A DNA stretch of 64,000 nt, from positions 77,119 through 141,118 of the forward strand of contig CANQPG010000002.1 of assembly GCA_947625705.1 (NCBI GenBank). The letters run 5' to 3'. Within the stretch, counting starts at the first letter, position 1, and each line of letters starts with the position of its first letter. A program made the position numbers and the translations under genes. The notes beneath the pieces were generated by a model. That model made no database searches and was not told the DNA's origin. It saw nothing but the letters and a program-made list of their open reading frames with translations. The DNA is from an uncultured Peptococcaceae bacterium (GTDB taxonomy: Bacteria > Bacillota > Dehalobacteriia > UBA4068 > UBA4997). This document shows positions 10,406 through 10,740 of the stretch, in pieces.

Positions 10406-10493
10406 GCGGATGTGGCGGAATTGGCAGACGCGCTAGATTCAGGTTCTAGTGAGGGTTGACTTCGTGGGGGTTCAAGTCCCTTCATCCGCACCA
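10406..10493 (+). tRNA. tRNA-Leu (anticodon CAG), CCA encoded
   Basis: Acceptor GCGGATG/CATCCGC, anticodon arm CTAGA-TTCAGGT-TCTAG, long variable arm, GGTTCAAGTCC T-arm. Confidence 0.96.
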
Positions 10494-10527: not shown

Positions 10528-10588
10528 TATCAAAATAAGATTTAAGAAATCTTTTTGCGGAGCTCAAATACTGCATACCGCCCACTAT

Positions 10589-10714
10589 TCAGAAGCGCAA
10601 GAGTGCGTCAGATGCTAGGAATAAGGCTTTTGACCGAGCAAGCTGTATTGAAATACGCGTCGCGAGGGCAAAAGACTTATGACAACGCAGATGGCGTGCT
10701 ATTGTCGCTTCTGA
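10589..10714 (+). ncRNA. Candidate structured RNA element (closed multi-stem junction) in the leader of ltaE; family not identified
   Basis: Outer stem TCAGAAGCG/CGCTTCTGA (9 bp), H1 GCGT-CAG-ATGC, H2 ATAAGgCTTTTG/CAAAAGaCTTAT (11 bp, one mismatch), H3 ACGC-AGATG-GCGT. Confidence 0.6.
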
Positions 10715-10740
10715 CGTCAGAAAACAAAAGGAGGATAAAT

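Follow-up and report, generated by a model that had tools for sequence, protein, structure and literature searches.

A structured element between tRNA-Leu and ltaE

The DNA analyzed here (the window, 64,000 nt) contains a 126-nt sequence that was predicted, from its letters, to be a structured element, and that lies between tRNA-Leu (CAG) and the ribosome binding site of ltaE. Its position raises the question of whether the element regulates ltaE, acts as a free-standing RNA, or belongs to a dispersed family. The sequence, coordinates, and setting given in the original prediction are all present in the window, as are the predicted outer stem, a 9-bp terminal inverted repeat (10589–10597/10706–10714), and the predicted apical hairpin (Table 1). 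The expectation of strong structure also holds, far above chance: the element has a minimum free energy (MFE) of −55.9 kcal/mol, with z = −5.36 and with 0/200 shuffles equally stable. A search for terminator and promoter patterns at the window copy returned none. The ltaE reading frame stays open from a TTG at 10555 across the whole hairpin (10555–10740), and automatic annotation may therefore make ltaE 62 codons too long.

Table 1. Features of the hairpin and its neighbors (window coordinates)
Feature	Position	Strand	Comment
tRNA-Leu (CAG)	10406–10493	+	Upstream neighbor, outside the element
Leader, G-poor and A/C-rich	10577–10588	+	Directly 5′ of the hairpin
Whole element, one rod-like hairpin, 126 nt	10589–10714	+	Fold energy, covariance model, 20 genome copies
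Outer stem, 5′ arm	10589–10600	+	Pairs with 10702–10704 and 10706–10714; extra base 10705
Second stem, 5′ arm, AGUGCGUCA	10602–10610	+	Pairs with 10692–10700; conserved tandem U·G/G·U wobbles
Tandem G·A internal loop, 5′ side	10611–10612	+	Opposite 10690–10691
Conserved asymmetric internal loop, 5′ side, UAGGA	10616–10620	+	Kept in other families (alignment A5)
Apical hairpin, GUAU-UGAA-AUAC	10645–10656	+	
Conserved asymmetric internal loop, 3′ side, GACAAC	10681–10686	+	
Tandem G·A internal loop, 3′ side	10690–10691	+	
3′ arm of second and outer stems	10692–10714	+	3′ end is the boundary abutting genes
ltaE Shine-Dalgarno sequence, AGGAGG	10729–10734	+	About 15 nt past the 3′ end of the hairpin
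ltaE, threonine aldolase / beta-eliminating lyase, PF01212	10741–11766	+	Downstream neighbor

The element folds as one continuous hairpin

The element had been proposed to form a closed multi-stem junction carrying two local hairpins, H1 and H3. The junction fold has an energy of −26.8 kcal/mol, whereas one unbroken hairpin, with the H1 and H3 strands paired to each other, reaches −55.2 kcal/mol. Across 59 copies from the genus, the local hairpins are kept in 54% (H1) and 31% (H3) of cells, compared with 96% for the long stem. Energy and covariation thus rule out the junction. The CAGAUG strings noted in H1 and H3 are both present; rather than belonging to separate hairpins, they face each other as a symmetric tandem G·A loop.

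Length, stem positions, and tandem G·A loops are constant across copies, and stem sequences vary. In particular, the outer stem covaries in alignments A2 and A3, and its sequence is nearly wholly exchanged between copies with complementarity kept (for example, CAGCCGUUCAA/UUGGACGGCUG at C2:48389). The second stem is paired in 96% of cells, with a G·U to A·C ratio of 149:8 (63 copies). The tandem G·A loop reads GA/GA in 47/63 copies and AA/GG in 7/63 copies, and the AC of the GACAAC loop is invariant in 17/17 aligned members from several families. Upstream of the hairpin, positions −11 to −2 are enriched in A and C and depleted in G (41 copies).

Copies are dispersed in the genome, the genus, and other Firmicutes families

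The original prediction had listed a dispersed structured repeat among its options and had proposed looking for further copies and for covariation; both are found, with many copies in the same genome, more in relatives, and covarying stems. We built covariance models R1 and R2 from two sub-classes of copies, and R3 as a broader model. R3 scores the window element at 126.6 bits (E = 9e-26). A BLAST search of the host genome (G000; a 1.6-Mb draft, 92% complete) with the element returns many copies. With R1 and R2, 20 copies are detected in this genome, and about 70 copies are present in 8/9 sampled species of the genus, at 1 to about 20 per genome, nearly all 121–127 nt in length; G002 has none. 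Near-identical copies occur at unrelated loci of the host genome (C48, C24, C6, and C14), copies in the host genome and genus also lie at purC/purB, groEL, glmU, and many other genes, and tandem copies with locus-specific linkers are present in G004 and G008.

Outside the genus, within the phylum that the genome search covered, R3 detects full-length relatives in G135 (three copies) and G097, which belong to one genus, and in G248, G200, and G313 (three copies). Full-length relatives span at least three other Firmicutes families. Weaker relatives are detected in G306 and G027 (R3) and in G053 (R1). Pairing in the distant members was counted on a structure-fitted alignment and is biased towards structure; their shared loop motifs are independent evidence. 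Specifically, an AGGA/GACAAC-type loop is present in the better-scoring distant members (G135, G248, G200, G313, and G306), a GGAG-GCGUAC/GUACG-GA motif is present near the tip in most distant members, and the CAGAU/AGAUGG motif recurs in G135.

No copy scanned has a match in Rfam 15, even at permissive thresholds, in line with the expectation that the element is not a standard riboswitch. BLAST searches of phage and plasmid collections with G000 and G135 copies, and of plasmids with G313 copies, returned no match. In viral contigs, one match to a first search pattern was taken as chance and a second pattern had none, and in a pattern scan of GTDB contigs, 5/19 matches lie within the genus (G004 and G008) and the others were taken as chance.

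Several smaller repeats accompany the hairpins. A short repeat with core TCGCCTGCGGCTCG occurs inside or beside several copies in G004 (L107 2727–2740, L101 2721/5719, L103 2752, and L104 1668/1852/1911), and a longer copy in the host genome (C15:11992–12238) likewise has an internal insert. The sequence GTGAAAAGTATTATCAA lies upstream of two copies at different loci of the host genome (L014 2367–2383 and L022 2242–2258) and is perhaps itself a dispersed repeat. Several full copies (L009 2380–2430, L017, L022, and L099) are immediately preceded, in tandem, by partial copies of the 5′ end (about 20–25 nt plus flank), as if from slippage or deletion.

Orthologous sites are filled, empty, or deleted

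Comparison of orthologous loci reveals extensive differences between species. Between purC and purB, the element is common to G000, G004, G005, and G007, is absent in G003, and is reduced by apparent internal deletions to remnants in G001 and G006. At groEL, among the loci read, the element is found only in G000 (the loci read in G006 and G002 are too short to tell). Filled, empty, and deleted sites, together with tandem copies, are the behavior of a mobile or duplicating element. As a separate observation, G001, G005, and G007 carry tandem repeats downstream of groEL (L192, L194, and L195) where G000 has the hairpin; the repeat unit in G001 and G007 begins TTAATGAAATCAAGCCGTAGGCGCAGATT.

At ltaE, the element is found only in G000 and, in decayed form, in the sister species G003. 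In G008, tRNA-Leu still adjoins ltaE, without the element. The absence of the element from ltaE elsewhere rules out a conserved ltaE-specific role, and a specific link to threonine aldolase finds no support.

Compensatory change preserves the fold on one strand

Pairing holds in 96.4% of the cells of the class B alignment, compared with 33–44% when the partner is slid, and 0/500 shuffles do as well. Changes on both sides of a pair are seen at 23/42 pairs in class B and at 27/44 pairs in class A. Among orthologous copies compared at one locus, 20/46 changed pairs have been returned to Watson-Crick pairing by a second substitution, compensation events that are few and not all independent; the remaining changed pairs comprise 14 G·U, 4 A·C (5 counting one pair changed on both sides), and 7 mismatches. 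In two comparisons involving G003, by contrast, 0/23 changed pairs are restored to Watson-Crick. The difference indicates that copies in most species are constrained in fold after insertion, whereas copies in G003 drift.

The fold is kept on one strand. Counted in helix context, which replaced a whole-hairpin count confounded by internal loops, G·U exceeds A·C on the + strand by 108:41, compared with 7:8, the neutral expectation, in decayed G003 copies; by copy, 40 lean to G·U and 10 to A·C, with the reservation that these tallies come from related sequences and are not independent counts. The + strand is more stable than its complement in 58/62 copies (MFE −59.7 versus −45.6 kcal/mol). The G·U bias and the greater stability of the + strand indicate that the functional molecule is most likely the + strand, as either RNA or single-stranded DNA (ssDNA), forms that sequence alone cannot separate.

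The 3′ end of the element abuts gene boundaries

An antisense right-hand neighbor has its stop codon within −15 to +6 nt of the element's 3′ end in 35/44 cases; genes were defined by mechanical ORF calls, so individual offsets may be in error. Before right-hand genes in the sense direction (ltaE, glmU, and other + strand genes), the 3′ end is placed immediately ahead of the Shine-Dalgarno sequence. The left flank is much longer than the right, also between convergent genes. Distant copies are placed similarly: the 3′ end is near an antisense stop codon in 6/10 (offsets −11, 0, +2, +3, +4, and −11), and in G200 the element ends 3 nt before a tRNA. In about 28/65 copies, both neighbors are antisense. 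In G248 (L204 2807–3211), a T-box leader and pheS flank a copy that is antisense to each of them.

Interpretation

The observations to be explained are dispersal, presence and absence between species, tandem arrays, strand-specific folding, compensation at single loci, and placement of the 3′ end. We favor, at about even probability, an uncatalogued Firmicutes family of intergenic hairpin repeats, about 125 nt long, that are mobile and non-autonomous and the folded + strand of which would be read by a trans-acting factor. The functional form would be a rod of constant length, RNA or ssDNA, bearing tandem G·A modules and the AGGA/GACAAC loop and preceded by the short A/C-rich leader; the factor would recognize the fold and not the double-stranded sequence, and the copies would have dispersed through mobility. 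Such a putative factor is suggested by G003, in which the copies have decayed wholesale and from which the factor has probably been lost. Structure selection at a fixed locus exceeds what a purely selfish element needs, and a host function is therefore likely mixed in.

The elements resemble MITEs in being small, non-coding, and dispersed and in having terminal inverted repeats. Target-site duplication, a further MITE hallmark, was sought as flanking direct repeats of 2–9 nt, and no excess was found across 62 copies; this result and the lack of a candidate recombinase count against the mobile reading. No autonomous partner transposon came up in the stretches covered, which fell short of whole genomes. 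Candidates for the trans-acting factor were also considered. The Y1 transposase (PF01797, RAYT) is present in 1/9 genus genomes and, being absent from the other 8, was rejected; reverse transcriptase is unlikely, as it is absent from copy-rich species; and tyrosine recombinases, counted as a class that may include IntI, are present in 9/9 genomes, which is uninformative. The copies are not arrayed as cassettes.

The main rival to a mobile repeat, with a minor but appreciable share of the probability, is an RNA-level boundary element. Rightward transcripts (read-through from + strand genes, antisense transcripts, and tRNA or operon leaders) would carry the hairpin and be terminated, cleaved, or bound by protein just before a gene boundary, be it an antisense stop codon, a Shine-Dalgarno sequence, or a tRNA 5′ end. 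The strict 3′-end placement at all three kinds of boundary, the folding of the + strand, and the compensatory evolution in situ all suit such an insulator or processing site, as does a G·U to A·C bias that is stronger where the left gene points in the + direction (52:11 versus 52:30). Against it, the copies flanked on both sides by antisense genes would need an unseen promoter for + strand transcription, the window copy showed neither a terminator nor a promoter pattern, and the element is lost or its site empty at many orthologous loci.

A multi-copy, free-standing ncRNA gene, with a promoter of its own at each copy and acting in trans, is improbable. It would fit the conserved leader and hairpin, the RNA-like tandem G·A and G·U features, and the presence of members in several families; however, the upstream regions share no common promoter, copy number ranges from 0 to about 20, and the stems are so variable that no conserved guide or seed exists outside the internal loops.

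Integron attC sites of the VCR type are long imperfect hairpins, similar in length to the element, that lie right after a stop codon, are folded from the bottom strand, and are more conserved in structure than in sequence. The present hairpins share this geometry, with the folded strand antisense to the preceding gene (the 35/44 copies with antisense right-hand neighbors), and their strand-specific structure and the ubiquity of tyrosine recombinases in the genus would accord with recombination of the folded strand by such an enzyme, as in integrons. That reading is nonetheless very improbable: the RYYYAAC/GTTRRRY core pair is present in 0/62 copies, and copies occur one at a time, at core genes such as purC and groEL, rather than in cassette arrays.

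Slightly lower still we rank a neutral palindrome, the arms of which are matched by template-switch mutagenesis and not by selection. Palindromes are prone to template switching, and partial tandem duplicates of element ends exist, but the reading is disfavored by the persistence across families of non-complementary loops (tandem G·A, U·G/G·U, and AGGA/GACAAC) and by the preference for G·U over A·C on one strand. Cis-regulation of ltaE, by a riboswitch or by other means, as suggested by a location 15 nt upstream of the ltaE Shine-Dalgarno sequence, can be practically discounted, given 19 further copies at unrelated genes and the lack of the element at ltaE in seven of eight other species, G008 included, with a decayed copy in the eighth.

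Relation to known repeats

A mobile hairpin repeat of this sort has relatives in kind. ERIC and NEMIS (Correia) elements are mobile intergenic imperfect palindromes of about 125–160 bp, and NEMIS/Correia elements insert at TA with duplication. The present hairpins are similar in size and likewise palindromic and intergenic, but their hosts are unrelated, the sequences are not known to be related, and no duplication is seen. HEARO/OMEGA and other Rfam structured RNAs are also multi-copy and structured, but match none of the copies scanned. The bcr1–bcr18 repeats of the Bacillus cereus group are dispersed intergenic repeats, often in UTRs or operon gaps, of which some are structure-conserved and bcr1–3 are MITE-like (PMC3446304). 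Both sets are dispersed intergenic Gram-positive repeats, some with conserved secondary structure; the present family differs in crossing Firmicutes families, in lacking target-site duplication, and in its fixed orientation to gene ends, distinctions drawn from description and not from sequence. REPs are 20–40 bp with tetranucleotide tags (PMC3733652). As in REP/REPIN-RAYT systems, the tags of which are of the GTAG/CGTC type, hairpins are dispersed and long maintained, with putative strand-specific recognition in trans, but the unit here is 121–127 nt and the Y1 transposase is missing from most of the genus.

The kind of element, a dispersed structured intergenic repeat, is thus known (bcr1–bcr18, PMC3446304; REPs, PMC3733652). 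What is new is the combination of structural selection in situ, strand specificity, 3′-end placement, and cross-family spread, in a family that is not in Rfam; our literature search covered openly accessible work, and an earlier description under another name is therefore possible.

More tentatively, and with less confidence than we place in mobility itself, these hairpins may form a Firmicutes-wide, structure-conserved class, set by the 3′ end against gene boundaries and acting as a folded + strand, RNA or ssDNA, with a dedicated protein partner. Such a class would be a new mobile system specific for structure, or else a domesticated element that sets transcript boundaries across the genome.

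Hairpins scattered through bacterial genomes tend to be regarded as decaying debris. Here, compensatory change maintains the fold of single copies, on one strand only, in strict orientation to gene ends, and in several families, and G003, in which all examined copies are decaying, offers a natural route to the missing partner. Annotation libraries would gain a family of RNA or ssDNA elements, in which structure-specific mobility or transcript-boundary control could be tested.
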